From the NCBI GenBank assembly GCA_950295325.1, contig OX485808.1, positions 39,266,527 through 39,330,526 of the forward strand: a DNA stretch of 64,000 nucleotides, in the 5' to 3' direction. Shown in pieces: positions 1-21,896 of this stretch. Position 1 is the first letter of the stretch. Each line of letters starts with the position of its first letter. A model generated the notes under the pieces. That model saw only the letters and a program-made list of their open reading frames with translations. It was not told the DNA's origin and made no database searches. The position numbers and the translations under genes are program-made. This stretch comes from Polytrichum commune (Eukaryota; Streptophyta; Polytrichopsida; Polytrichales; Polytrichaceae).

Positions 1-109
1 TACATTAAGATTAGGGACGATTGTATAATGATGTGACTAATGTGACTAATACCATGCCGAGGTATTAGTCACATTAGGCACAACATTATAAAATCTTACA
101 GAACTCTCA
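1..109. repeat. Foldback repeat, copy 1 (pair with 347-455)
   Basis: A ~109-bp sequence that recurs nearly identically at 347-455, offset 346 bp. It contains a perfect 13-bp stem (41-53 with 61-73) around a 7-nt loop, and weaker outer pairing between a GATTGTATAATG-type start and a CATTATACAATC-type end. The compact shape and near-identity of the two copies suggest a small non-autonomous foldback element or a recent local duplication. No target duplication can be judged because copy 1 begins at the window edge. Confidence 0.75.
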
Positions 110-346
110 CACCTTCAGGCCTAAGTTTTTGATATTTTTTTCCATAGTTAGTATATCAAGGAAGTTTGAATTTTGCAAGTTTCTACGGTCATTTGATATT
201 TTGTTTTATTTTGTTTTATTTTGTTTTATTTGCTTTAAATTCAATTTCAAATTGAGAAATCGTTAAAATGGTGCACTACGTGTTGGAGTGTGTTGGTTTT
301 GGTCATGGTAATGATAGGAATGTTTCACATGCAAATTCATATACAA

Positions 347-455
347 TACATTAAGATTAGGGATGATTGTATAATGATGTGACTAATGTGACTAATACCA
401 TGCCGAGGTATTAGTCACATTAGGCACAACATTATACAATCTTACAGAACTCTCA
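347..455. repeat. Foldback repeat, copy 2
   Basis: Second copy of the 1-109 sequence, with a handful of substitutions. The 13-bp stem (387-399 with 407-419) is preserved, and the outer pairing is better than in copy 1 (CATTATACAATC against GATTGTATAATG). The unique DNA between the copies (110-346) includes a TTTTATTTTG-type run at about 193-230. Confidence 0.75.
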
Positions 456-814
456 ATTGTCTTCATAGTGTTAGAACACTAAATGTCAACTCTAACACTA
501 TTTGTACCAATTAGTAACTTTGAATATTTACAAAAGCGCATTGAGTGTTAGATGACATTTTTTGTAGATCTTCAAATGAAGAATTGGAGGTAGAATATGA
601 GAGCCTCATAGAAAATGTAAAGGGTTATGATAAAATAGAATTACAAATATGACGAAAATAGAAGGTATAAGGAAAGAAATTGCAGGTAAACAAATACATT
701 ACGATAAACAACCTACGAGGATGGCAAGACAGAGCGTACTTGTCGGAGGGGGACATGAAGAGTGTAAATGGAATCAACCAGCACAATAAACCGTATGGCC
801 TGGCTCAAATTCTG

Positions 815-823
815 TATATATAG
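815..823 (+). promoter_or_regulatory. Putative TATA box of the MULE protease gene
   Basis: TATATATAG stands in GC-richer sequence upstream of the protease gene, and no other good TATA box is near. It would place a start of transcription at about 845-850. The first coding exon and true ATG of that gene lie between here and 1,479 and were not resolved. A double telomere-like motif (AGGGTTTAGGGTT, 1,268-1,280), which resembles plant telo-boxes of 5' regions, lies in between. Confidence 0.4.
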
Positions 824-1478
824 CGAAGTGTCCTCACGAGCCAGGTTTGTGCTGCACCGTCGTTGTTCTGCAGGAGGGCGGATCGTTTATGGGGGGAAAA
901 TCGTACTGCTACTCAGTGTCTCGTTTGTGTGGCCCTGCTCTTCGAGCCTTGAATTTCGGGGTGGTGGTGATCGTGAAAACGTCCTCGCAATCCTCCGGTT
1001 AGGTTTCTGGTGCAGGCCCTACTGCGTCGCCTGGCGAGGACAGCCGCGGCAATGCGCAATGGAACCAGGTGAGGGGCGGCTAAACCTTCCTCCGGGGGGG
1101 TGTTTAGAGAGTGGAAATCTTCATTTCGCCAGTCGTGCTCGCAGTGTTTCCGCGTGTTCTCGTGTGGGGCTTGGAGGAGCGTGAACTAATTTCCCTTTCA
1201 CATGTTGGGTTTTCTTTTTAGCAAATTAGTTCAGGTCTTCGCGTGCTCCTGGATTACGCTGCGTTTGAGGGTTTAGGGTTACGGTGGATTTGGTGGAGGT
1301 ATGGGCGCTGGTGCCAAGCATGTCAAGATTATGTTTAGAGAGCTCGCGGTGTAGGTGTAATGAATAAACGTTATACTTGGGTTCTAGGCACGAGGGAAAT
1401 TCTGTAGGAATTAGGCATCGTATTAAATTCTGAACCCATATTTCCACATCGTTTTTTGATTCCCTTGTGGTCTTGTAG

Positions 1479-4400
1479 ATCCGCGGCGGAGAGTGACCAG
1501 AGCAAGGTCTAACAAACTATTGGAGGAGGACGTTAGTATCGACGTTGCCATCGAACCTCTACTGGGTCTGCAGAGGGGAGTAATTGAGGAGAGTGATGCC
1601 AAAACTGACACTGATATTGAATTCGGCGTCCCTCCAATATCTCTGTCGAACCGATCTGGAAACCGCAGTGCCTCCCGAGGGGAAAGCAAGACAACGTTGG
1701 CGCCCGCTATAGCTTCGGGTTCTATTTCTTTTCTCGGCGTTGGAGTAACAGGCCCACGAATTCAGTTTCCTCATGACGACAAACTTATCGTAAACGAAGA
1801 CAAACGACTTATTGAGGGGTTGGGGCTGGAGACATGGACAAGACTAGTGTCAAAGGGGCGATCGGGTGTGCAGGAGGTAAGGTTCGGACATAGGTCTGAG
1901 ACGTCTGAGTCGTCTGAGTCGTCGATATGGAACGTCGGTTTAGGGTTCTTGGAGTGTTGTCGCCCATTTAAACTCTGTTATTCCGTCCATGTTGCAAGGA
2001 TTCACGGTCGGAGGGGAGAGGGTGTACAGGGCCGAGTTGAAGTAGGGTAGAGCTCCATGTGCGTGTCTATACACCGAGGAAGAGTACAAGGCTTTTGTGA
2101 TAGAAGCGCACTACACGTGCCGATATCACTTCTGGGAGGACCCTAGGTCAGAGAAGCAATACCATTACTGGTGCAAATACTATCACATGGACTTCTCGGA
2201 TAAGAATGCTCTATCTTATCATCGCTACAAGGACCAATGCAAAAAGTGGAGGGAGGTTGGAACATGAATTATGAAAATGTACCCAACATTTTCACAGAGT
2301 GAGCAACACCTCTCGAAGGACATCCTTGTGGGAGTGGGTTTGTCGTTTCCTGAGAAGGAGGGACGGTGCCTGTGGAACCCGAGAGAGATTGCAGCTCACG
2401 TAGCCCACGTAGCCCATACAAACCCTGTAGTGCAGCCGAAGACTAGGAAGAGCAGGACCACAAAGACTACCTCTAAAGAAACATCGGTCGGTGTAGGTAT
2501 AGAGGATGTTAGGGTCAAAGAGAAGACGCTAAAACAGGCTCCGGCTCCACCTACCTCTTCCGAGCTTCACACCACGACCGAAAGGATAGAAAGGTCGGTA
2601 CAAAACGCAATCCAGAGAGGTAGTGCTACTGTAGTGCAGGAAAAGGGTAGCGACAATCCTACTGGTGTTGTGCCGGTCGTTCGTAAACCGTCAGCGAAAA
2701 ATGAGCCTTCAATACGGGGCGCATCGTCGAAGCGGGGACGCGAATGGTATGGTCCAAGTTCCGGGCGCAATAAACAGGATCGCGAAGGCAGCAACAAGAA
2801 GAAGACTACCTCGCTCGCGGAAGCAATGAAGAAGAAGGACAGAGTTGGAGACGACGAAGTGCTATCGCTGGTGAGAGAGGACCGCGATTGCAGCCATCAG
2901 ATCTCCGAGGATTTCGGCAATGTGGAGGGATTCTTCACCTTGATACATGTCGACGCCGGAAAGGGAAGCAGTACGGCCGGCATAGTGCAGGTAGAGGCGA
3001 ATACATCAGTGTATAGTTTCACGCCGGATTCCACTAGAGAACAGGTTCTAGATGAAGCTCGGTGTTATGCATCGTCGTTAACAGTGGAAAACACATACCC
3101 GAACATTGGCCCTCCTCCTCCATAACAAGGCATCGCGGGCTTGTATCACCTGATTCAAGAGTCGCCGCAATGCGTCATAATTGACCGACAATTGCTACAC
3201 AATGCTGAACAATGCATGGCTGAGCTTCGTAGCTTGGAGAAGCGTGACCAACTTGGTGCAAGGATTCTTGCAGCAATTGGACCCTGGGTGGCGTGGAAAG
3301 AAGCACAGGTATTCTCAGACAGGTCCTTTCTTGTAGTGCATATTTTGTTGCTCTGGCTCCAAGTCAGGGAGTGGGTAGTGCGGGCAGACCCAGGCTAAAA
3401 CCATGTCGCATGTCTCGCAGGCGGGGGGCGTGATCGATGCCAAACACGCGGACAAATTGAACTTTGTCATGATATCGGTGAAGCCCTGGAATCCGTACAT
3501 CGAGTTGACAAACAACGAGGGGAGAAATGTCGAATTGGCCAAATTGGAACAATACTTAATTTATATCCGGGAGAAAGCACAGTACATGTCTAAATGCCTC
3601 AACGCCGAAGTGGCTCTGGAGGATCGACGAAGGTCTCATATTGTAGGGCAACTCCAGCTTTTCGATCGTGAGAGGGCAATGCGAGTGGAGGATACGGACT
3701 GGGGTTGGTCTCCCCTTTTCAGGATTCTTAGCAAGGAAATAGCTCCAGGGGTACCGACACGACCGTGGAAGCATACGCAGGAGGAACTCCACGACATTTT
3801 ATCCGCGTTGCAGGCAGACGTGAAGGGGGAACCCATGTCCTTAGAGCTGGACTGCCCTCACATCGTCCGCGCTCTGAAGCTATACGGACGCATTTCCTTC
3901 GGACGATGTTCGCCAATTTCACATCCTATCACGGGGATGACCAGGCGGAACATGTTGGCAATAGCAAAAGACGATGTAGAATCCAAACGACTGTCGGCGT
4001 GTGCACAGGACGTCGTAGATATTGGATGGGCTCTTTTCCCCTGCATTTTTGGCGGAATTTGTGCTCACATCCGTCGATGTTGGGGAGACATGCTTGGGCT
4101 GATGGGGTTCGAGGGCTGGAACCAAGACGACGTCCTGGAGACCATTGAAACTTTTTTGAACCGCGTTGCCCGCCGCGCCATAGTAGACTTGCATCGGAGC
4201 GGGAAATACTCGGCAGAACTAGCGGCAATGTGGTGGAGGACTGGTTCAGATGATCCCGCTGCACTACGCGCCCACTGTAACGAGGTAAGTGTTAATGAAT
4301 GAGGGGGTGTCTTCTCCTATGTGCGGTCGGTGACGATTTGGATATACCTAGGTCGGGCAGACATCCTTACATTGTCGTTCATTTGTTGTTTTTTAGGTTT

Positions 4401-6298
4401 TGTCGAAGATGTTATGTATTCGTGAAAACGTGGACATTGGATGGTCAATGCTGGGACTGGACAACGAAGTACCTGTTCCCGATGAACTGAAGGAGGCCGT
4501 TGGATGCGTAGTACAATTATTGCTGGAGCTACGCGAGAAAAAGCTACAGCGGACCTTTGCTGAACTCGGGTTCGCACCACAGGGATGCGCATCCGACTCG
4601 GCACCCGTAGTGCCGCCCAACGTAGTGCCGTTGGGGGTGTTAGATCCCACCAAACAGAACAAGGCAACCGTGGACGGCACAGAGAATGAGGCGGCATTGC
4701 AAATGATTTCAGCAGTAACGACCGAATCCCATATATGCTTAGACAGTACGTTACCCCCCATGGTCGACGACAGCGAGAACGAGAGGCAACTTCTCTTTCA
4801 ACATATGATGAACCCCTTGCCTCCAATTATGCGGGCTGGATCCAGGTGGTTCAGGCGGACTCCGAGTCGGGTAGCGTTCAGGTTACAGTCTGGGAGTTCA
4901 CAACTTCTGGATTCCCTGGTTCGCGCAATGGACCTTGCCGCCGCGAACAAAGTCGTAGAAGACCATCTAAGACTGACCTTGGGGGACAGGAAACCCCCCG
5001 AAGACAATGCGGTGGCGATGTCGGTCTCCCCCCTGGATTCTGCAATCATAAGTTGTAGGTAGTATGGGGAAAAACCTTCCCTGTGTACATTTTGAGGTGC
5101 CTAATTGATGCTCTATTGAAAAAACGCCTCGCTGATGGATCTCAAGTAGGTGTAATACTGAAAGACGTATGTGTTGCCGTTGCAGTATACCGCCGTGCTT
5201 GTGCTACCTCCACTGTCCTGCAACCAGTCGTTGTGCTGCCTAGAGTTTGACGCCGTGTTGTCTTGCAGTGCCTACAACCTCATGAGAGACTGCATTAAGT
5301 CGGAGTGTGGTGATCTTGCAAGGGGCCACATGCAGTTCATATTTGACTCAGGCAGTACAGTTCTTCATCTGACTCCAGACATAGAAGTCCTCGATTCGAA
5401 GGACGGATTACTCACTACACCGCTCATGGATTTCTTTACGATATGGTTCCAGACTATAATCCCAGATGATGTCCTGCTATGCAATTCCCTAGTTGGATGT
5501 AGTCTTCGTGCCCTAGTCGAGAAACCCTTTTCAACCTCTGCACTACACAGGTTTTATACTAAGAAATCAGGGTTTAAGCGCATGAAAGGGAGGACCGTCA
5601 TGGTTCCCGTCGTTGACTGCAATCACTGGAGTTTAGCTGTGCTCTCCGACCACGCCTTCTTAAAGTTCGACTCCAGACCGTCTGTGTCAGTAAGTTTTAA
5701 CGGTTCTGCAAAATTGCATGAATGCCTCGGACAAGTATGGTGCATGGCCATAGGGCAGTCGGAAGGAACAACAATGTGGGAGAAGAGTAGTGATATTAGG
5801 ACCTGGATACACGTTCGATGCCCAAAACAGGAGGATGGATGGTCGTGTGGATACCACGTTATGTGCTTCGTCACCATGTACCTGGCGTTCCAAATGGGAG
5901 ACGATGTCATGGACTGGACATGCGAGGTCTATACCTTTCCCACAGTGTTCTACCGTTGTAGTCGGCCTCTAGGTCACTCTACCGCCACATGCTCGTTGGA
6001 ACTAACATTGATTTTTTACCGGTGTTTGACTATGTTGCAGATGTCCGACGTTTTTGACATGGGAGAGGTGATGGACATGAAACAAAATCTGAAACGAGTT
6101 GTTGTCTCCGCAATGCTCACATGGTCGGTAGATAGGACGTTGTGCCAATCGTCGGTTGGGTTTGACAGAGGATCGTATCAGGATAAGGACGATGGATGTG
6201 TAGTGAAAGACAACAGTGACGTTCGATGCAGCGAAGGAAACCATTGCAACGTGGAGGTAGATGACGGTCCACAGGGTATTGTTCTCATAGATGAGTGA
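1479..6298 (+). CDS. MULE-borne Ulp1/C48-type cysteine protease
   Basis: Exons read from splice sites and phases are 1479-1876, 2046-3308, 3421-4284, 4397-5058, 5269-5926 and 6041-6298. All phases join, giving about 1,370 codons plus an unresolved first exon. The C-terminus carries the full Ulp1 (peptidase C48) signature: His in the DCNHWSL motif (codon 5624), Asp in KFDSR (5669), Gln (5828) and Cys in GWSCGYH (5846). This family cleaves SUMO/ubiquitin-like proteins. The long N-terminal two-thirds is unfamiliar. It includes a Cys/His/Tyr/Trp-rich stretch (about 2067-2260) and a basic Ser/Lys-rich linker (2400-2850). Two in-frame stops break the second exon, TGA at 2265-2267 and TAA at 3123-3125. 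Each is one C-to-T change from a sense codon, and coding character continues in the same frame past both. The gene is probably inactive in this copy, though the protease domain itself is unbroken. Confidence 0.75.
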
Positions 6299-6447
6299 AT
6301 GTAAATCTCCTACAGTGTGGGTACTGATAATCATTCAATGTCAACCCTGCATTCTTTGTACTTCTCCAACGCGCATTACCAATCAGAATAGTATCGCTCT
6401 GCACTACATGAACCATAGAATGCATCAGAGGATTATATTTATTTTGG

Positions 6448-6495
6448 AAACCCTAAACCCAAAATCCTAAACCCCAAAACCCTAAGCCCTACACC
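6448..6495. repeat. Degenerate telomere-like repeat
   Basis: About 48 bp of imperfect AAACCCTAA-type units (plant telomere repeat, CCCTAAA strand), 150 bp after the protease stop and 50 bp before the TATA box of the next gene. It may serve as a telo-box-like promoter element or be a relic of telomere-repeat capture. It is too short and degenerate to be an interstitial telomere block. Confidence 0.6.
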
Positions 6496-6540
6496 AAGCC
6501 GGCAATGTGTCACTCTTTGGATTTACAGACAATAAATATT

Positions 6541-6548
6541 TATATAAA
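6541..6548 (+). promoter_or_regulatory. TATA box of the small MULE gene
   Basis: TATATAAA lies 60 bp upstream of the ATG at 6608, implying a transcription start near 6575 and a short leader. This gives the small gene its own promoter, separate from that of the protease gene upstream. Confidence 0.5.
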
Positions 6549-6607
6549 GACCCTGCCCATACGATAACGTCTCATTTTTCCCATCCATGATGGTCTAGGA
6601 CAACTCT

Positions 6608-7049
6608 ATGGATTCCCCTTCAATTCAAGTGTTGGAGGACGAAGTCGTCACCATCCTAGCCTCACTCGCACAAGATTCAGCGGTGTCATTACCGATGGCA
6701 CACGTGAGCATTCCAACTTCGTACGTGCTATCTAAACCGAAGCGCAAGTCTTCCGAGTCAGATCCGGTAGTGTGTCCAGAGGCCTGGGTGGAACTCAGGG
6801 AATCTGAAGGTCCTCTAAGTCAAGGCGTACATTCAGTACGCCGTCTTCACGGAGGGGGGGGAGTCAAGGAAGATAATTCGGTTCCCGCTGTCTGGTTGGC
6901 CTGAGGAGGTTCACGGAAGCAGTTCGTATCGTTCGCTTGTGAAGGGTCTGATTCGTGGTCAAAAGGTCAACCGTGATACACCTTCAACGACGTCTGCTAG
7001 TAGTACCGATGTTTCTTGTCATCACAACGTCCTTGACAGTTCCCTCTAG
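6608..7049 (+). pseudogene. Small MULE gene of unknown function, frame-broken
   Basis: An ATG at 6608 follows a good TATA box. The first ~75 codons have coding character (hydrophobic and acidic start, then a KPKRK basic patch). From about 6820 the coding character moves to a neighbouring frame, which stays open to a TAG at 7047-7049. That frame reads YIQYAVFTEGGE, then an FPLSGWPEEV motif and a Ser/Thr-rich tail. The switch near 6,800-6,825 needs either a one-base indel or an unrecognised intron. Product length would be about 145 aa. I recognise no domain. It lies between the two convergent large genes of the MULE and could be a third element-encoded helper, like the extra genes of VANDAL elements. 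That comparison is by position only. Confidence 0.45.
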
Positions 7050-7248
7050 GCAGCATGGTTAGCGTTGGACATGAAATCGTAGTGGGACTTTCATAAGAAA
7101 TATTCTCGGATAGAAATTGATATTCATTTGATGAATAAAATATATGTAGTACACATTGTTACTCCTGTCTTCTACGCACTACATTCCGACTGTGAACAGT
7201 GTTAGATCTAGAAAGTATTAAGGTAGTGCACTTAACAGTTCGATTCGT

Positions 7249-10200
7249 CTATGCTCTACAGCGCTTACTTGCCCTAGGAACTTCCAATCGACCTAGTTTT
7301 CTTTTAAGCGACCAGTCCCCTTCCCTGAGAGGGAACGTGGGGGTCGTCTCCTTGACCTCCTTGCATGCAATGCCACGAGCAATCATCTTTCTGTATCTCC
7401 CGCAAATACTCTTCAAGTCTGCCACCAAGTGATTCTGCAATTCCCTATATTTCCCTGCAGTGCTCAAGATATCCCGAATCAACTCAGCAAGGTCGTCTTG
7501 TTTCGATCTGTTCTGCGAGGGTAGTGCAGACTCGATAATTATCGAATTCCCTTCAGTTCCACATGTTTTAAACTGATGCTCCTCAGACTGGCTTTTAACC
7601 GGCTCTGTGTTGTCACTTAAGACAATCGGATTCGAGTTCGTTCCAAGGCTCGACTTCTTGTTGGACTCTGCACTACATGAGGTCGACGCTTTGCTCCCAC
7701 CTGGAGGATAGAAAGTTGACACGAACTTCACTTCGTCTTCGCCGTCGTTGTCCTGCTCGGTGGACCCAAAAGCATCCGCTATTGGGATCGTTCGCTCCAT
7801 CCCACACCAAGTGCCAGCCTCGCGTATAATTAAGCCCTCGTCAATAGCCGGATGCTTCATCATAAAAACCTTCATAACATGCTTGCACATTGTGTTCTGC
7901 TGTCCAACAAAACAATCACGCTGCGCCCACTCCGTGTCAGTCCCATACACTGTCCAAATCTTGGGGTAGTTGTTAACTGAAACCACCAGTGCAATGTCGT
8001 CCCCCTCTGGGTTCAGGTAGACGTAGGAGCCCGGAATTTTGTGGGCTAGGAGAATAGCGCTTGCAATGAGAAACTCCTGCTTGATATTTCGGACAAATCC
8101 GAACTCTTTCAAAGCCCGAGCATACCAGTAATGACCGGTAATCTTGTTCTTTAGATCGTCAGCCAACCAATCCAACCGACGTCCTGCAAACCGCTGCTTC
8201 TCAAGCAAGAGGATCCTCTTCAAATTAGCATGAAACGACTTGATCCCAGCATTTGTGTTTTGTCCTGCGTGAGGCACGTTTCGATTTGCTGCACACCACA
8301 TTCCAATCTTCTTCCGCCAATGCTTATCAATATATTTCATGAATTTGGCAGTTGAAGGCCTCCGATCGCGAATCTTGTCGAGCTCTTTGTTAGCCCATGC
8401 TACCGGGTCTGTCCCAACGACATACCTCTTGCCATAGAGTACATCTCCTACCTTCTTCAATAAGTTCGCTCTATCCTCGATCCGACTTATCTTTGTTGCC
8501 GCGTTCTCAGCCCACGCCTTCTTAACATGCCAGAAACAAAGAAATATCTTCGATGTCGGCCAGAGTTCCCTGTAGTGCAAAGTGGTCACAACCGATCCTC
8601 AAATCAATATAATGCCCTATGCAATACTGTCAAGAAATTTTTTCTGGAACTCGTATAATGTATATGAACTTACTGTAGAACGTTCAATTCCGCCTGCGCG
8701 TTGTCCACTATGATGGAAGAGGGTTTCCAGTCTGCATTCATAGAGACGGCCTTGTCCTTCAGCGCCTGCAGCACATGTTTTAAGGCGTTCTCTGTGGAGC
8801 TGGAAATGATGAAATAGGCAATAGGTATACGGTTCCGCCATTCGTCAAACACCATTACAGTGTAAAGAGGGTACTGCCACAAAGAGTTGACAAATAGTCG
8901 GATGTTGGGTTACCTATACCAATATAATCAACGTCATGCTCTAAGAAATCCAGTGATACAATCATGAGGATTTGGTAGTGAACTTACCCTCGAGTGACTT
9001 GTGCCGAACGTGGCATCAATCGAGATTGCACTACGGTGACCAAACTTCAAGAGCATTGTCATCTGCCAGTCTGTGTGGAATCCAAGAGTGAACGGGGCGT
9101 CGTCTTGTTCTACCTTGTTCATGTCCAACAAACCATGCTCTTGGTAAAAAAACACTTGCTTAATGTTTTCGTCTTTCCAGAGTCGGATGCTTAATGTCTC
9201 CTTCTTGTGCTTCATCCAGGTCTCCTCCGCACGCTTGTTTGCTATGTTTCGAACGTCATGAGCCATCACGAACATGTCCTTGCTCACCGGGGCATTCGAT
9301 AAAGCCATCTCCATCACAAAAGCCTTGTGTTGGATCATCACCTAAGTGGAGGTTAGTCCCATGTCCAACATACTTCCCAACTTCTTCTTCATGTTCTCGG
9401 ACAACGAACTTCCCATGGAATGTTTGAACCCAACCACCATGAGTCCGTGGCATTGTTCGCCATGACAATTAACGTGCTCCGTAACCTTGTACACCAAGTG
9501 GCACAATGTAGTGTCCATGTAATTCTGCTTAGCCAGGAAATGCCGCGGACATCCTCATTTCATCGACATGCCTGCTGCCTTCTACCCAATCCTCGGCTTC
9601 TTCTGTCCTGTGATCCTGTTTGTAGACATGGCATTGAAATCCGGTGTAACCTTTTTACCTTTGCGTTTCTTCTCTAACGATGTCTTTACTCTCTTTCGCC
9701 TCCTTTGCTGTTCTGCTTGGAGAAGCCCCTTCAGGTCTTTGATGTAAATATGCGAGTTGTCCTCAGGTCCAAAGTTACAAGTGAACCTAAGAGAGTGGAG
9801 ATGGAGAAAGCACGTTAAATCTGAATGTAGTGCAATACCTACCAGAAACTATTTAGCTCGCTACGTCTGTACATGAAGTGCACTACGTAATGAAAACATA
9901 ACAAATAAACTGTAAAGTGAGTCTTTTAGGATGCACTACAACTGTAAACAATCAAATGAATATGGAAATTATAGTTCTTAACTTACTTGATAACCTTTGC
10001 GGCACTATTTGCTCTCGGGAATACCAGACTTCCAGGTTTATTCTTTTTCACCGTCTCCTTGTTGAAGCAACAGGGGTACGATTTGTCCTGACCCTCCCCC
10101 TCTCTAAAATCTTGAAGTCTCCTCCAGGGGATTACTGCGACGTCGTGAATATAGTGACGTCCTCCGCCTTGTGTACGAATCGGGAGCCACGTTAAATCTT

Positions 10201-10963
10201 CTTTGAAGAAAGGACCCGGTGGAGGAGTTTGTTTCATGTCCCTTAGGCCCCTTACCAGCTCCTCTTCACGCTCAGGTCCCTCGTAAGGAGTGTCCTCCTC
10301 CTCCCAGTCCTCGGAGAGAATGTGGCGGCTAGGTTTTCTCTCCTTGCCTGCCTTCTTCGATTCCGCTGGCTTCGAGTCTGGTGCACATCTTCCGGCCTTG
10401 GTCCCCTTAACCTCAGGCTTGGACTTGCTCTGAACTGATGAAACATCACTCTCACGACTGGAATCACGATTGGAATCACTGTTTTGCGAAATAGAGGAAG
10501 TTCCCTCTCCAGAGCTCTGCCCTTGGGATCCATTAACTGCATCAGTGAAGGAAGAGGAGGCATACTGATTACATGTTGCGCTGTCTGATGTTTGATCCGT
10601 GACTGAAGAAGAATTTGATGTCCAGTCGTCAGAGGTAAGGTCGACATACGCAGTGACGTCTACGTAAGTTGGATTTTTACTGACAGTCTGTTCTGCACGG
10701 TCTAGAAGAGGACAATCGCTAGCGTCCCCAAGGTCGATGTAATTAAGAGCAGATGTTGGTACAGATTTAAGATGACCACCTGTGCCCTTCTTCGGTAGAC
10801 AATCATCAGAGACTGTTAAATCAATATAGGATGGATGCGTGTGTTGCAATACAGATTGGACCCTGCAATCCCCGAGATCCTCCTTCGAGTAGTCGCAGTG
10901 TGCATCGTTCCTAACTAAACTGCTACTATCCAGATCGAAAGTGGCAGACCTGTCTAACGCCAT
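7249..10963 (-). pseudogene. MULE transposase, four exons, three in-frame stops
   Basis: Exons are 10963-9987, 9786-8988, 8873-8674 and 8569-7249. They join in phase with consensus GT-AG sites to 1,099 codons. Exon 1 is acidic and Ser-rich and carries the SIM-like motifs described separately. Exon 2 starts with a basic Lys/Arg patch, then a Cys/His-rich module like the FAR1/WRKY-GCM DNA-binding fold, then the first catalytic Asp (ISIDATFG). Exon 3 gives the second Asp (IIVDNAQAE). Exon 4 has the LCFWHVKKAW motif and a SWIM-type zinc finger (C, then CKH near codon 7890), ending in a basic tail. Exon 2 has three stops in the same frame: 9584-9582, 9557-9555 and 9344-9342. In the NTNAGIKSFH motif a Lys sits where relatives usually have the third catalytic acidic residue (Glu). 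This copy should therefore not make active transposase. Confidence 0.8.
10625..10828 (-). other. SUMO-interaction-like motif cluster in transposase exon 1
   Basis: Within about 68 codons the encoded protein has four similar short motifs: YIDLTVSDD, YIDLGDASD, YVDVT and YVDLTSDD. The I/V-D-L-T core followed by acidic and Ser residues matches the general form of SUMO-interacting motifs (as in RNF4-type proteins). The surrounding sequence is Ser/Asp-rich and probably disordered. The function is inferred from motif form only. Confidence 0.5.
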
Positions 10964-11619
10964 ACTGTCGTTCGAGCAATACCATGACAACTTTCACATC
11001 TGGTGAAACTCTTCGAAGGACTACGCCTAAGTCAAACTGAAAGTGATTCTAAGCTTCACATCGATCTCAATATTCAAGCACACATGCAATGCAACGAGAT
11101 AAGAATGCATTGGATTAGGCATCAATTTAACCGTTTGCAGGGCGACAATGTAGTGCAGAACACAACAAACCAGATCATATATTTCCGGCAGTACATAGGA
11201 CGTTCTACCAGACACGTCTCACCAGTCGAGAACGGTTGTGTTACCCGGCATAGTTTGATTTCCCGGGCGGATTGAGTAGTGCAGATTTGAAATATCCAGA
11301 TCCGCACATATAGGATCTTAGTGCACTACGGTGCCGTCTTCACTACACTCGCTCTCAATATCCCTATGGAGCTCATATTTTGAATTCGTAGTGCAGAGTA
11401 CTCCGTCCGTTAAGAAAGTTCTTTTTTTTTCCGTCCATCGTTGATGATAACTGCAACTCTTCATTAGCGGGACCGAAATCGGGCCCGCTCTGACGCCGTG
11501 GTCAAATATCGGGTGTACCTTCCGGGGCCCGTTCCACGAACCGGGTCCAGTATCCACGGCTCGAGACCCAGCGCCGGGCTGCAAAAAACCCTAATGATAG
11601 AAGTTCGATGGGGGGATAT

Positions 11620-11950
11620 TAACGCGACGCGGTGAGAGAGACGAAATCGTAGCCGTCAATCAGCGAATCTCAGCCGTTGCGATGAGGACAGCTGGCCCAT
11701 GCTCGAGAAACCAGGTCTGTGCAGACTCATCAGTCCCGACTTCGAATCCGACTAAGCAATTAAATTACTTCGTAAATGAAAAGTTAAAAATAAATGATGA
11801 CGGCCCTTGCACGCAAACGCAAAAGGGACCCGGACAATGCGACTACAGTCAGGCTAACTCCAAACCTTGACAATTTAATAGCACATTTTGGGAATGGCAA
11901 AAAGTCATATTATTGGAAACCTACAACAATATGTGCAATTAAGTTGCCTT
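11620..11950. repeat. Diverged duplicated block, copy A1
   Basis: About 330 bp that aligns with 14,845-15,180 in the same orientation. Shared landmarks include a GAGACAAAATC-like start, CAGCCGTTGC/CAGCCGCTGC, GGCCCATGCT, GTGCAGACTCA, a GGGACCCGGACAA segment, CTACAGTCAGGCTAACTCC and CCTTGACAATT. Divergence is substantial, with small indels. No coding capacity is seen. The homology continues discontinuously (12,250-12,690 with 16,960-17,370), so the whole 11.6-13 kb stretch seems related to 14.8-17.5 kb. Confidence 0.75.
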
Positions 11951-14291: not shown

Positions 14292-14435
14292 TGGTTCACA
14301 TGGGGTCCCAAGTCCCAACTTTTGAGCTCAACCCAACTCTCAACACAAGTCCCGAGCCTCACCTCCAAAAGGCGTTGTCATGTGAGCATCCATGTCATAC
14401 TTGGGACCTAGGACTTGGACCCCGTGTGAAGTGGT
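14292..14435. repeat. Small foldback (MITE-like) sequence
   Basis: The left end reads TTCACATGGGGTCCCAAGTC and the right end reads GGACTTGGACCCCGTGTGAA, which are inverted repeats of each other with few mismatches and enclose about 100 bp. A second set of TTGGGACTTAGGACTTGGGA-like words follows at about 14,490-14,525. The target duplication is not clear. Confidence 0.55.
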
Positions 14436-14844
14436 AAGTCCCAACTTCCATGCTCTCAACGGTTAAGATTGCACGGATTGACCTCAAGTGACTTGGGACT
14501 TAGGACTTGGGACCAGACTTGGGACCAATTTACTTGCCTCTTTGCAAAAATGTAACTAATTATTTACAAGGTATAAAATCACAAAATAACTTGCATTCCT
14601 CATCATTTCGTCTACTCCATCTCTGGAAAAATATCGCACAAAATTCCAAACCACTAGTTTTGACCGAATCGACTCAATTTCACCACTTTTCCGTATAATA
14701 TCTACCTTAGATCTCATTCATATCAGCATAACATGACCCTAGTGAGCGGTTGAATGGACGTGATCGACTTATGGATGCCTCGACCCTAAAAGGCCCAAGT
14801 TCAAATGCGATGTTGGAAGGCTAACTTAGACAAGCGTTGAAGGA

Positions 14845-15180
14845 GCAAGGTGATAGAGACAAAATCTGGGCCGTCGGATCACTTCAATCTCAGCCGCTGC
14901 AAATTCAGACAGCCGGCCCATGCTTCCCAGATTCCAGGCCCTGTGCAGACTCAGCAAGTCCCCAATTCAAAATCCCGACTACGGAAACAAATTGATTATA
15001 CATGAAAATTTTAACTATGGTGACCGGCCTATTAAGCAACCAGGAATTACAGGGACCCGGACAACATCACTACAGTCAGGCTAACTCCGAACCTTGACAA
15101 TTCAATGGCACATTTGGGCACCAGCAAAAACATTGTATTCTCCGAAACCTACAATGATATGTGCAATCAGCTTGCCCAAC
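14845..15180. repeat. Diverged duplicated block, copy A2
   Basis: Counterpart of 11,620-11,950 in the same orientation, at an offset of about 3.2 kb. Ends are gradual. After 15,200 the two copies lose similarity until the B blocks, which here are pushed further downstream by extra DNA that includes the MITE at 16,227. Confidence 0.75.
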
Positions 15181-16226
15181 GCTAATTTATCGCCATTCCA
15201 CACTATTTTGGAACTGTGTTAGGAAATTGTATAACCACAATATCAACATACTTGAATTGAATGTGAATTACATATTTCCTCTGATTACTATACGGACGAT
15301 TAAACAAACTTGTGTAATTTTGTGATCTAATTTTCACCCAAGGTAATATGCATGGGTAAATAGGCAACCTGATTACATGTATGATTGTACACGATATAAG
15401 TTAGGTATATGATTTAGTGTGGGTCACATTAAATTAACATGCACCCACGACAATGAACTACACTAGATGATTCTATTCACGTGGGTGGACAATAAGCATG
15501 GAGGTAAATAATGTGGGCCATCCTAATTGCATGGTCATGGTGAAAATAATGTAGGTCCAAGGCTCCGGGTCTTCACCTCAATCTTCCTTGAGACTGTTGA
15601 CCAACACCTTCCATTAGATGATAGTCACGTACATCGAAAATAGCGTAATATATAATACACACCCACATCAATCTCGTAGAAAAATAATCAGTGCAACTCA
15701 TGCTAATGTTAGACTAGAGATTTGGAATGGGTCGAAAAATAACGTGGCCCATACCAATTCTCATTATGAGAATTATTGTGGGCTTTAGAGAATTATTTGG
15801 ACCCACACTAATAAATCTATTTAGTGTAAACCATTTAAGGTATTTAGTGTCACGTACACTATTTGCAAAGGGCCTAAACTAGATGCCTAGAGGTCTCAAA
15901 GTGTCACACCTTCTAATTGCCAATATGATTCTATTTGTCAACATAAGTAACTTCTTCAAGTGAAAACAACTACATTGTGACATTTAGAGTAGCACATCAA
16001 GATACTTTAGATGATAGTCTTGCGTTTTAGTTTGCAAAAGGGAGGTCTTTTTGAGCGTACTAATGGTAAATGTCATGTGTTTGCATTGTAGTATGTAAGA
16101 GGAAGATATTCTTGAACATACTAATGGCCAATGTCATTTGTGTACACTTTAGTCAACTTGTAGACCATTGTGTAGCAAAAGCATGCACCTCATAAAACTA
16201 TTGCACATACTCATGCCAACATATTA

Positions 16227-16763
16227 GGGCCGCTTTACACCTAGAGGCCGGGCCAATTCCCCTTGAGGCCGATTACATGAAATTTTAGCCCCTTTTGGGT
16301 TGGAGGCCGGCGTCAACTACACATTATAATAAGATTATAATGGGGGCCAATTTTCCCATATGTAAAGGCCTTAGGGCCAAGAAGCTAGGCCGATTCAATA
16401 AATCTAGCATAATCCAACGGATCTAGCATAATCTAGCATAGAGGCGTTCATATTTCCACATAATCCAATGAATATGGTTCTCTAAAAGAATCATTTTTTA
16501 TTTTTATTTTTAAATTCTTTTTTGAAATTTGACATTGGCCCCGAGGCCAAGAATTGGCCTTCGATTTTGGGTGCACCCAATTCAATGAGCTCGGGTTGTG
16601 TCATACCATGCATTTTTTGATTAAAAAATTCATACCACCAAATCGGCCCGGCCTCTAGGTGTAAAGGGGTTGGGACCGATTTCAGCCTTTTGACCAATCA
16701 CAAGTGAGGATTTCAAGCCTCTTACACAACAAATTGACCCAGCCTCTAGGTAAAAAGCGGCCC
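16227..16763. mobile_element. Tourist-like MITE (PIF/Harbinger-type), 537 bp
   Basis: The ends are inverted repeats of about 31 bp. The left starts GGGCCGCTTTACACCTAGAG, and the right ends in the complement of GGGCCGCTTTTTACCTAGAG. Direct TTA copies flank the element (16,224-16,226 and 16,764-16,766), which is the 3-bp target duplication of PIF/Harbinger elements. An additional inverted copy of the left end lies inside at about 16,645-16,672, so the right side looks duplicated or nested. No transposase is encoded, so an autonomous Harbinger would have to mobilise it. Confidence 0.85.
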
Positions 16764-16959
16764 TTAGTAATCGCAGTTGAACACAAAGTGTCATGAGGTG
16801 ACACTTATGACAAAGTTATTAATCATCAATGTAACCTAGTATACACCTCGAAATAGGGTAAGTGACACTATTATGCATGTGACACTAGATACCATAAATG
16901 GTGTTGTTATTGTAGGTCACATAATCTTTTTAGTAACACCTATTCTCATGAATGTGTAC

Positions 16960-17370
16960 TATCGTGGAAGAATATGCCATATTATGAAGGGGTTAGTACT
17001 TATTAGAACATGAAAGTAGTACACATTATGTTAAGAGCTTCATTGAGTTGTAACAAGACAACATGTCAACTTGAAAGAGCTTGAATATTGATGTGTCCCA
17101 TGATAAATGTTTGACATGCTGATTCCTAATGCCACATTTAAAAATAAATAAAAAATGGTGTAGCCAAAATTCTATTGTTGCAAAATTTAGGACTGAGTTG
17201 TAGGAATATCCCGGTTCCCGTGCTACTTGAGTTGCAATCCTTGCTTACATTTACATCTCACAATGTTCACTTATTATGAAAGGAAGCCTAGAAAATGAAA
17301 ACTTGTGAAGTGAAGTTGTTGATCATATCATATTTCTATGGTTGGTGTCCTATGATGACTTGATGAACTC
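16960..17370. repeat. Diverged duplicated block, copy B2
   Basis: Counterpart of 12,250-12,690. See that entry for shared landmarks. It ends near the shared GACTTGATGAACTCC segment. No coding content. Confidence 0.6.
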
Positions 17371-17399
17371 CATGTAAGCATTTTGAGCAAATTTAAATT

Positions 17400-20000
17400 G
17401 AATCGATTCATTGTAATTCTTTATTCTTAGGTTTGAGTTGTTTTTATGTATGTATGATAGGAGATCCCAATACAAGACATGTTTTTTTTCAGATGATAGA
17501 GGCATCAGAAGCGGAGCAAAAAAATCACTATCCTATTGGTTGTCACTTCATTTAGCCATGTCCATTTGAAAATATTTTCAACAAGATAAATAAAATTTTC
17601 AAATCGGAATTGTATTCATTTTCTCCATAGTTTTTGAAGGTCAAACACAAAATGCTCGTAATGAAAGAAACACAAAACCCAACCATGCCGACCTTTTACA
17701 ACCATATATTCGAAAGGGTGATGCAAGGGTGGTTCAAACCCGAGGGCCTTAAGCCACATCCCACATGAACTTTGAGGTTAAACTCCATAAGGACTGAAGA
17801 ACACTTGGATGGATGACTCTTCCTTCCGGTGCACCCTACCACCTATAGTCCACTCAATCATAGCGGGGTATCTGGGTGTACCATATATTTTCAACTATCC
17901 GTGTAAAAACTAGGGACCCACCCACCGTGTAGGTGCGGGTTGACTTCTTTGTGCCTACATATTTAACGTGCTCAACTTTGAAAGTGGCATGATAGTCGGG
18001 TCCCAACATGATTATTAATTCGAGCACCAAGAAATAGGCGTTATTATGTAGAGAAGTTTGCTAAGGGAAAATACGGGAGTTTCTAGCTGCAACTAGCATA
18101 AGCCAATTATAGGAGGAATCTAAACTTTGAAAGGAAACATGAGAGTGTGAAAATGTGAGAGAAAATACGTTGGGAGAGGAAGACTTCTCCCTTTTCCTTT
18201 ATATATCCATTCGCACTCTAAACAACCAAATAGCTAACTTTAGACAACTCACTATCTTTAGACAATTCCTAGCTTTAAACAACTAACTTTTTAACTTTAA
18301 ATAATCAACTCTAGACAACTCACTATCTTTAGACAACTATCAAACTTTAAACAAATAACTTTCTACTTTTAGGTGAGTTATCTACATGGAAACTAAGCCT
18401 AGGGTAGATGTGTCTCAAGTGGACACTTTTTTGAGGGCCACTTCACCCATGAGACAAGATCATGACCATGTAATTGTGAAGGTCCTTGAATTTTATCGAA
18501 AGGTTGTACCACTAACATGGTCTGTCGACTTTGTGTTAGGTCTATCTCTTGCAGGTGGGCCTAACTCAAATTCCATTCGACCATGAAACAATATGTACAG
18601 TTTGCCATGGAAAAATCCATGTAGATTTTTCATCCATGATAAATAATAATAATAATAATGTTGGATCCTTAGTAAGCCTTGAGCTTCTAATGTGAAGTGA
18701 ACTTGGACAATCTTTGCCTTTTTGACCAATGAGAGATCTTAGATTGCAATGGACATGGGCCTTCAGTCTCGCATGTGCAGTGGCCCTCGGGTTGAAGCCT
18801 TCTTGTGGGAGATCTTCAACACTCATATTTTTTTCCAATACTTGCAAATGTTTGTGGAGGAGATAGCAAAAATCAAATATCAATTCGGGGTTTGTAAAAA
18901 TCTAAATTTATGAATTTTTAAATAAAATATGTTTTTATCTAGAAATAGCTCATGTAGTCTCCCCCAATGGACGATTGCCTAGGACTCATATGTTGGTAGT
19001 GAATCGTTCATAAGTTGAACGATAATCTTTTGAAATTGATTTGATAACTCATAATAACTTTGAATGACCCTAAAATACCAAAGAGCGCTCTCTATTTCAA
19101 TTTTGGGTGAAAACGTTTGGATGCAAACTAAAGAGCTCTCTTTATTGCAATGTATGCAAACTAAAAAAAAAAAGATGAAATGGAGAGCCCTCTATGGTAG
19201 TCGAGTGCAACCACACTAAATTCAAATAATGAACCACAACCTTGTGTGGGGCAAGTTTCAACTTCATTGGATGAGAGATACGATTGTATGTTACATGCAT
19301 ATTGACCTAAACTTATTCACCTTGAGGATGAAATCGTATGAATCAATTGATGCAAGAGACTTGTTATATTTTGTAAACAAGAAATTTGCATGTGTCTATT
19401 TTGGAATAAATTTAGCTTACGTTTTGGAGTATGTACTAATTCTATTGTAAACTTCTTAACAAATAGTATAAATAGGTGGCTTTTGAATCTAACTGTGCAT
19501 AACATTATACATTTGACTCTATGCGTTGGGTGGGGCCTGGAATAGGATTCTATTCACAATTGAACTCTATTTATTATGCTAGCACAACACTACACTAGCA
19601 TATCTAGGCTAAAAAACTTGGGTGAAACAATGCACTTATATTATTATAATGAAATGGCTAATAATAACTAAATAATGTTATGTAAATTGATGTCCAATTG
19701 TATTAAAGTTATTCCACATGAGTGTGCCTTCACAACCTCGAGACTAAGCAATATAGTAAAGTTCATTATGTAAGGTAAATAATTGTAACTACATATTGCA
19801 GGGCCACCTTTTACCACGGTCCATTTCCAAAGGCACACTATTTGCAAGCAATGTGATGGAGGAGACCACAACCCCACTCAAAATATAATAAAGAAGGGAG
19901 GTGGTGGTGGGGTCGTTGGTGAAGCCGTTACCTTGCCATTTCAAAAGCAGTCAGTTGTAAACAATGGCATATTGAGTGGATGGTTCAGGATGGTATGGGA
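17400..20000. other. Gene-free stretch with a short tandem repeat
   Basis: I see no gene here. At 18,225-18,375 there are irregular tandem copies of a CTTTAGACAACTCAC/CTTTAAACAACTAAC-type unit (about 15-20 bp), and at 18,645-18,660 a short TAA microsatellite. Open frames in the stretch are short and unconvincing. Confidence 0.6.
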
Positions 20001-20004
20001 TCAA

Positions 20005-20215
20005 TGTCCGGGGATATTTTTGAACATAATCAGTCGGGATTCCAGTGTTTCCAAGTCCAACCGATTACAACCTGACATCTTTTGATTTTTCTTTATTAAT
20101 TTAAAAGTACATTTGCTAAATTACTCTAAAATGATCGATAATTTTTCTGAAGTCGTGAATTTCAATCGGTTATTTTTCAAACTCAATCGGTTCATCCCCG
20201 TTCATTGCCTGGGTG
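20005..20215 (+). repeat. ~210-bp dispersed repeat, copy 1
   Basis: First of four same-strand copies of a repeat. It opens with GTCCGGGGATATTTTTG, then has AGTGTTTCCAAGTCCAACCG and TGACATCTTTTGAT, and ends with paired AATCGGTTATTTTTCAAACTC and AATCGGTTCATC words. It contains AACCGGTT-related palindromes. A poly-G run follows at about 20,240-20,258. No terminal repeats or Pol III boxes are evident, so its class is unknown. Confidence 0.75.
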
Positions 20216-21896
20216 CAACATGCTGGGGTGGTATGGGCCCTCGGGGGGGGGGGGGGGGTAGTGTGTTAAAAAGTTAAGGATATAGGTGCGAACAACCATT
20301 ATTTTAGAGGGGGGTATTACTTTCAATTCTCTTCTTTTTTTCAAATGCTATCATTATGTAAATTTCTACTTTGGGTTAATGGAAAAATGGCTTGCATTAC
20401 TTATAATTCCAAATTACCTATTATTCCATACCCTATAGTACTTTAAAGATGTCCAGTGCCATTTTTGATACCCTATATTATTCTTAAGTTCATTTATAAT
20501 TTTTTGCCCCCATGTTTTTAAAATACCCTATCATTTGTTCGCACGTATATTGCTACTCCAACCAATGACTACCCCCCGAGTATGGGCCCATACTAGTAGA
20601 AGTACATTAGGTCCCAGTTCTTAAGGTTTGATATCCTACGTGGTAATAAGTGCCAAGGAGTTGGGACTTTGTAAACAGTTGGAATATTCAAAGGCACAGA
20701 CCCAGCCCAATGTTAAGGCATTAAAAGTTTAGTCATAATAAACTAATTAAGCACTTCATCTTAAAGTATCAATGTGTATATTTTTCATACATCTGAGAAT
20801 TGAAGTTGTCTATTGTGTTCAAAAGATCGATTCCAAAACTTCATTGATTATCAATGTTTCATGAAGTGATCACATGTAAGGATATATATATTTTGTGACA
20901 ATTTTACCATTCAGAGAACATTGAGTGTGATTTCCATTCACTCTTTGGTAATTATGCTCCTTATGACTGTGGCCATGCTCATATCAAGCTATTCATCGAA
21001 GTAATGAGATGTGTGTTTATGAAAAAATTGTCAAGTAATTGTTTCTTATCATGATATGGGATGATCAAAATATTTGTCTGATTTATAAACATATGGTTGT
21101 GATCCTAAGATGCTAGGTGCATTATAGATCTTAATATGTGCAATATCCCCTCATCCTCATTTAAGGTTAGATGTTAATGGACTCACTCTCCATGCATTTC
21201 AAAAATATCCTTCATAATTGAACCCAAAAGCAACCGCTTCACAAATCCACTACTAGTTCTTAAAATATTTCCATCTCATTCTTGTTTTTTATGATTCTAC
21301 AACACATGCCAACAATAAAAACAACATCATCAATTCAACATCTTGTTGAAAAATAAGCACTTATTGCAATGACAAAATGCCAACAATTATATGCCACTGC
21401 AACCACTTCACAACCATGAGGATAGAGAACAAAAAAGATTGGATTTTCTTCTTGTAACCATGCCTAAGAAATTAAGTAAGAGTGAAATTTTGGAATCCAA
21501 GTTGCTAAGTGGATAAGGCAAGGCTTGAGACTTTGTAACATGTATAAATCTTGGGCCTTGCAACTAAGACTTTGCCCTTCGCATGATGACACCCCAAGTC
21601 TTATTAAATGTGTTTTTGGTTTTCCCGGTTCTTATTCACTTCAATGACCCCATGAAGTTGGACATTTCACCTTAGAGTGGACTATAGAACTTGGGACAAT
21701 GCAAACAAAATTGCAATAATTGCACAACGGAATGCATAAGCCTACGACATAATCAAGTGTAAACTAATCGCCACTAGTGGTATAGACCTTGTAGACCTAA
21801 ATGTGAATCGAAAGGCTACACTAGACGTTTGTATTTAGTGAGCTTGCTGGGAAATTTGGTTTGCCTGCTTAATATTGTATACTTACACTAAACATC

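Follow-up and report, generated by a model that had tools for sequence, protein, structure and literature searches.

A dispersed, family-specific 8-bp word in a Mutator-like transposon of Polytrichum commune: a candidate self-recognition system with relatives in the same genome

How a transposon escapes silencing without freeing all other transposons is an open question, and what can be said about it has so far rested on VANDAL elements. The question is raised anew by a Mutator-like transposable element (MULE) at the left edge of a 64-kb stretch of the Polytrichum commune genome (contig OX485808.1; the whole stretch is referred to here as the window). An earlier note had reported an 8-bp word repeated 19 times across this element, and had proposed either an independent motif–protein system like that of VANDAL elements and their VANC proteins or a set of transposase binding sites. 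Our analysis revealed that more distant members of the group in this genome have dispersed words as well, each specific to its subfamily and different from, but related to, that of the window element, which lends support to the motif–protein idea. We put at roughly 0.55 the probability that these words serve, by analogy with VANDAL/VANC, an element-encoded self-recognition with an anti-silencing effect.

A dense and dispersed word in the window element

All 19 reported copies at 272–11395 were verified (9 TGCACTAC and 10 GTAGTGCA), the exact word occurs 0 times in the remaining 52 kb of the window, and the near-copies pointed out earlier are present as well (GCACTAC at 2108 and 7176; GTAGTGC at 2620, 3375, 4607 and 4622). 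Within the element part at 600–11630, TGCACTAC is the most enriched of all 8-mers, with 18 copies in 11,030 bp against 0.38 expected under an order-2 Markov model. Nor is the word equally common genome-wide: 407.8 Mb in 64 contigs hold 13,363 copies of TGCACTAC and 8,448 of the reversed control word, so that the density is 0.033 per kb in the genome on average versus 1.6 per kb in the element, a difference of about 50-fold. One part of the original description has to be given up, namely that the motif is confined to an element spanning 272–11395. The element extends to the left of the window, and the copy at 272–279 (+) belongs to an inserted segment; because it sits within a tandem unit (~330–350 bp) of that segment, it was rejected as a dispersed member of the core array and probably lies outside it.

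The 18 core copies are distributed over genes and spacers alike. Eight fall within 6,534 bp of homology-supported coding DNA: two in the zinc finger–N region of an accessory gene (2427–2434 and 2631–2638, both −), one in its X domain (4260–4267, +), one in its Ulp1-type domain (Peptidase_C48, hereafter C48; 5539–5546, +) and four in the transposase gene (7521–7528, −; 7669–7676, +; 8572–8579, −; 9027–9034, +). The other ten lie in 4,496 bp outside such DNA: one between coding blocks (3333–3340, −), two between the accessory and transposase genes (6400–6407, +; 7223–7230, −), three in a non-coding stretch (9827–9834, −; 9879–9886, +; 9932–9939, +) and four in a subterminal cluster upstream of the transposase gene (11150–11157, −; 11276–11283, −; 11322–11329, +; 11388–11395, −). 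The eight coding sites fall in more than one reading phase and on either strand with respect to the gene, so that neither codon use nor homology of the proteins accounts for them.

Could the words be devoid of function, having spread within each family through duplication inside the element, gene conversion or biased composition? We regard this as very improbable. Across 26 sites the surroundings are dissimilar, apart from a weak preference for C before the word (12/26) and A after it (17/26), and all 18 core copies in the window have dissimilar contexts (the count is still 18 once look-alikes are removed), so that an extended repeat is excluded as the cause there. Base composition is likewise excluded, since simulations preserving trinucleotide composition never reach the observed scores. 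A genome-wide search with a pattern for two nearby copies in tandem gave no match.

As a separate observation, TGCACTAC also occurs in apparent tandem arrays at C1:2252669-2256505 and C1:2078396-2078667, with spacings of ~128 and ~132 bp and no link to any transposase match there.

Distant relatives carry words of their own

We examined 10 kb around each of 17 distant transposase loci (36–57% identity), hand-picked to cover the match range, and scored every locus by its most enriched 8-mer after removal of look-alike contexts. In 12 of the 17, the best dispersed 8-mer, discovered in the same sequences in which it was counted, belongs to this kind of motif and outscores each of six 10-kb control segments (worst log10 score −6.5) and each of 190 simulations (worst −5.8). 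The word is TGAAGGAC in L018, L021, L022, L024, L025 and L032, with a shifted form in L031; TGAATGAC in L026; TGCAGAAC in L019 and L020; TGAAGAAC in L030; and CATGTTAC in L029. The same words come out in L017 and L027, but with a borderline score (−6.2). Since L019/L020 and L018/L024 are ~97.6% identical, the 12 loci amount to fewer independent cases. Five of the six words fit a common frame, TGNANNAC, whereas the word of L029 does not.

Cross-counts are class-specific: TGCACTAC occurs 18 times in the window element versus 0–1 times in each of the 17 relatives, TGCAGAAC 26–27 times in L019/L020 and CATGTTAC 12 times in L029. Reversed words number 0–3 per locus, and the words themselves 0–1 in control segments. 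An element that had not been fetched (transposase at C1:939604) provides an independent check: it has 13 copies of TGAAGGACA in 12 kb, and none of TGCACTAC or TGCAGAACA in the genome listing. Some word copies do arise by tandem repetition. Four of these 13 lie in a 21-bp tandem repeat (C1:938103-938174), the word of L026 has 24 raw copies versus 15–16 independent contexts, and three TGCACTAC copies sit in the inserted segment mentioned above; these are the observations that a spread without function would explain.

Alternatively, a host factor (an activator, or one related to silencing or small RNAs) might recognize the word, with the element gaining or tolerating it for the sake of expression. 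Such a factor would fit the bias towards DNA outside homology-supported coding regions in L031 (34/38 copies) and L020 (21/27), and also the fact that each tested word is commoner genome-wide than its reversed control, by 1.6 to 3.3 fold. However, a single host factor is hard to accept because related elements of one genome carry different words, and we consider this explanation improbable.

Two further observations concern the words. The excess over reversed words genome-wide is 2.4-fold for TGCACTACA, 2.4-fold for TGCAGAACA and 3.3-fold for TGAAGGACA; they may be present in many members that are decayed or non-autonomous. In L018, L022, L025, L029 and L032, scattered telomere-like AACCCTAAA words show a moderate enrichment. 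The best 8-mer of L023, AGCGGACG, is not motif-like and was left uncounted.

Conservation and turnover of the sites

At least 105 transposase matches were found genome-wide (94 of 460 candidates scored), and among the matches listed five are close copies of the window transposase (90–95% identity). The window copy is called W (its extended coordinate is the window position plus 20,000) and the family copies B, C, D, E and F. Copy E has 19 sites; all 17 that can be aligned with W are intact there, compared with a fraction of 0.589 for control 8-mers (p=1.2e-4), a retention that further argues against the absence of function. The alignable E sites are also intact in B (18/18), C (10/10) and D (13/13); however, W, B, C and D share ancestry, and therefore these comparisons are essentially one test.

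Among the distant loci, we compared ordered pairs of the same motif class with at least 1,500 aligned bases. Between such loci, which are 74–83% identical, fewer than half of the alignable sites are at the same place in 38 of the 48 ordered pairs. The number of words stays high while their places change, as expected for selection on the density of binding sites; shared descent accounts for part of this pattern only.

Candidate reader proteins

These patterns suggest binding by a protein, and we propose that the scattered word is the element's address label, a set of putative sites at which an element-encoded protein would bind sequence-specifically. Such a reader might cover the whole element, as the sites are found in both orientations and in coding as well as non-coding DNA, and would most likely keep or make the chromatin of its own family accessible, as VANC does for Arabidopsis VANDALs. 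Related elements mostly stay within the frame TGNANNAC(A) but use words of their own, which suggests that reader and label have evolved in concert.

The likelier reader is probably the accessory protein, with the transposase as the alternative. In the window element the accessory gene (zinc finger, N, X, M, C48) and the transposase gene are convergent. X matches are found in 14 of the 17 distant loci and C48 matches in 15, always facing the transposase wherever both are found. X is preceded by a single zinc finger, C-x2-C-x12-H-x5-C, which is full in 8 of the 17 relatives and in family copies, and which gives sub-threshold C2H2 matches only in Pfam (0.043 and 0.25). The finger helix (positions −1 to 6) differs by motif class: it reads DKNALSY in the TGCACTAC class, DKNTISH in the TGCAGAAC class, DKNTLSY in the TGAAGAAC class, DKNTTSY in the class of TGAAGGAC with TGAAGAAC and TGAATGAC, DKNMTSY/DKNMISY in the TGAAGGAC/TGAATGAC class and SKLRLTD in the CATGTTAC class.

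Word classes also follow the transposase tree (13 rows; L028–L032 left out, as they are in the X tree, which in addition omits L023 and L027, having no X match). Therefore, covariation alone cannot choose between the accessory protein and the transposase. On this ground the words might be the transposase's own binding sites for finding or pairing element DNA, comparable to the internal or subterminal repeats of other DNA transposons and having nothing to do with anti-silencing. No other part is shared by all the elements examined: the transposase gene is present even where X or C48 gave no match, and four motif copies cluster 240–480 bp from the right end. On the other hand, copies are spread across the whole element and its genes, the first one in D lies ~960 bp from the left end, and end recognition needs no sites in coding DNA. 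We therefore consider this explanation unlikely, although less so than the two discussed above. Even with the transposase as reader, it would be unusual to find family-specific words dispersed within genes.

Points against self-recognition, and its implications

Several results weigh against self-recognition through an accessory protein. To begin with, the conservation is one-sided. When E was searched for the sites of the other copies (W, B, C, D and F), no excess was seen in any of 7 comparisons; for W in particular, 17/24 sites are kept in E versus 0.606 for controls (p=0.21, not significant). Even in the favourable direction, F keeps 11/13 of the E sites (p=0.055). Taken together, the forward and reverse tests mean that E's sites are kept and that further sites, absent from E, are present in the other lineage, having been either gained there or lost in E. 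Thus, the proposal of an independent VANDAL/VANC-like system or of transposase sites retains the support of a word that is not equally common genome-wide and of conservation from E to W, but not that of conservation in reverse.

Among the distant loci, a same-place excess over control 8-mers (p<0.05) is seen in only 17 of the 48 ordered same-class pairs, which are not independent. L016 and L028, the closest to the window element among the 17, have no such motif, and L023 is weak, with only 8 copies of TGCAGAAC. As for the reader, no X match is found in L023 and L027, no C48 match in L029 and neither in L028, and the zinc finger of the window copy is degenerate. The full finger is readable in just 8 of 17 relatives, which limits the comparison of helices with classes, and the match between them is a lead only, because any protein region would differ between clades. 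Finally, one zinc finger alone reads 3–4 bp, less than a word of 8–9 bp.

If self-recognition is nevertheless what the words serve, its interest would be considerable. Several labelled families seem to coexist in a single genome; their words differ at three positions within a shared frame, and the finger helix of the candidate reader varies as well. Together they would form a natural table of reader–word pairs for studying how specificity works, how it evolves and how families stay insulated from one another, and might yield tools for targeting chromatin changes.

Structure of the element and its genes

Alignment to four copies places the right end of the element exactly at window position 11630, and the terminus ACGCGACGC is common to W, B, D and E, whose flanks differ. 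The part inside the window, with its 18 dispersed motif copies, spans 600–11630. To the left of the window, similarity to other copies resumes and reaches C6:39257781, with six further motif copies outside the inserted segment; a left end of the window copy was not found. The sister copy D measures 17,058 bp and has 18 motif copies. Target duplications of 9 bp, within the 8–11 bp of MULEs, are present in B (CACAAAAAC) and D (CAATTGCAC), the only two copies readable at both ends. The element ends, GCGTTTCATTACAGACCCCCC and GCGTCGCGTTAATATCCCCCC (inverted), agree only partly; they may be short, imperfect inverted repeats, which VANDALs lack. By its target duplications and its transposase, the element is a MULE.

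Inside it lies a segment of ~6 kb (window 1–455 plus C6:39260847-39266982; W 14320–20455), flanked by inverted arrays of ~330–350-bp tandem units. Its right end at window 1–455 consists of ~345-bp units (1–109 and 347–455 are 98% identical) and contains the motif copy at 272, which has counterparts at W 14558 and W 14888. B, C, D and F have parts of the segment, and E lacks it. It may represent a second transposon that became nested before those four copies spread.

The accessory gene lies on the + strand. Remains of the zinc-finger exon (2088–2306) have one Cys ligand replaced by Tyr and an in-frame stop, and therefore the window's own accessory gene looks broken there. The N-terminal variable region N (2268–3125) continues the zinc-finger frame in copy E, and is followed by the conserved X domain (3379–4302), which belongs to no Pfam family, the M region (4397–5062) and the C48 domain (5162–6298). 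The latter stays below the Pfam cut-off in the window copy (14.4 versus 20.7 bits), with relatives L019 and L031 scoring 22.7 and 24.6 bits; the His, Asp and Cys that we take to be its catalytic triad are all present. In Pfam, neither DUF1985 nor DUF287 matched any of 11 X proteins or the window N, M and C48 regions. Genome searches for the two domains also gave no match, but none was obtained in control genomes either, so that these searches do not establish absence. The predicted structure of X (mean pLDDT 47.9) is too poor for a structure search, and a model of the zinc-finger region (mean pLDDT 68.9) retrieved no significant PDB entry (best E 3.4).

The transposase gene, on the − strand, has an N-terminal exon (9983–10993), a middle exon (8934–9341) and a C-terminal exon (7249–8598), which has no Pfam match alone and is homologous to the L029 transposase. 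The window transposase is 41% identical to that of L029, which passes PF10551 (MULE) with 27.9 versus 27.6 bits.

A second, diverged accessory gene (X-M-C48) lies left of the window at C6:39259377; it also has the M region, and its C48 part is 35–37% identical. The second gene is found at C1:58356298, C6:28250980 and C2:593353 too, and its zinc-finger helix is identical to that of the first gene (copies B, C and E). Away from the element, runs of at least 8 G/C are strongly enriched in window 12001–64000, with 37 separate 8-mer matches versus 1.2 expected.

Comparison with known systems

TnpA of En/Spm is an element-encoded DNA-binding protein with a short recognition word that recurs many times in either orientation, and it has been linked to demethylation. 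It belongs to another superfamily, and its words are subterminal, whereas here they extend across at least 17 kb. Among open-licence papers, we found no report of other MULEs with dispersed family-specific words.

Closer at hand are the Ulp1-carrying VANC genes of eudicot VANDALs (Kaonashi/KIU). According to a review (PMC13317346), they also recognize family-specific motifs in non-coding DNA, and therefore the combination of Ulp1 and motifs is not new in itself. A MULE accessory protein with an Ulp1-type domain is common to both systems. Compared by description only, the Polytrichum elements differ in that no DUF1985 was detected and in having ends that may be short imperfect inverted repeats, with 9-bp duplications.

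The best-described counterparts are VANDAL21/VANC21 and VANDAL6/VANC6. Hosaka et al. (2017; PMC5735166) showed that VANC21 recognizes YAGTATTAY outside the coding DNA of VANDAL21 and demethylates these regions, and that VANC6 targets contain AGTTGTCC/AGTTGTAC. The sequences of these words are not what is enriched here: in 19 element segments YAGTATTAY numbers 0–2 and AGTTGTMC 0–3 per locus. Further differences are that 8 of the 18 words of the window element are in coding exons, that all 18 are outside recognizable repeats, and that the accessory protein starts with a zinc finger and has no DUF1985 or DUF287 match. Words mainly in non-coding tandem repeats, as in VANDALs, are therefore not a feature of the window element, but partly are of L031, L020 and L026. 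What the systems share is a MULE with an accessory gene, an 8–9 bp word repeated many times across the element, a change of word from one related family to another, tandem repeats that hold some of the words and, here in L031 and L020, a mostly non-coding location. A dense, short, family-specific word that differs between related families is thus found in both. We tentatively suggest that Mutator transposons able to address themselves have radiated a second time, independently, and that element-encoded zinc-finger readers without a detected VANC-related domain might serve at least five coexisting words (four in the TGNANNAC frame and one outside), each with a helix of its own, and keep the families insulated from one another.

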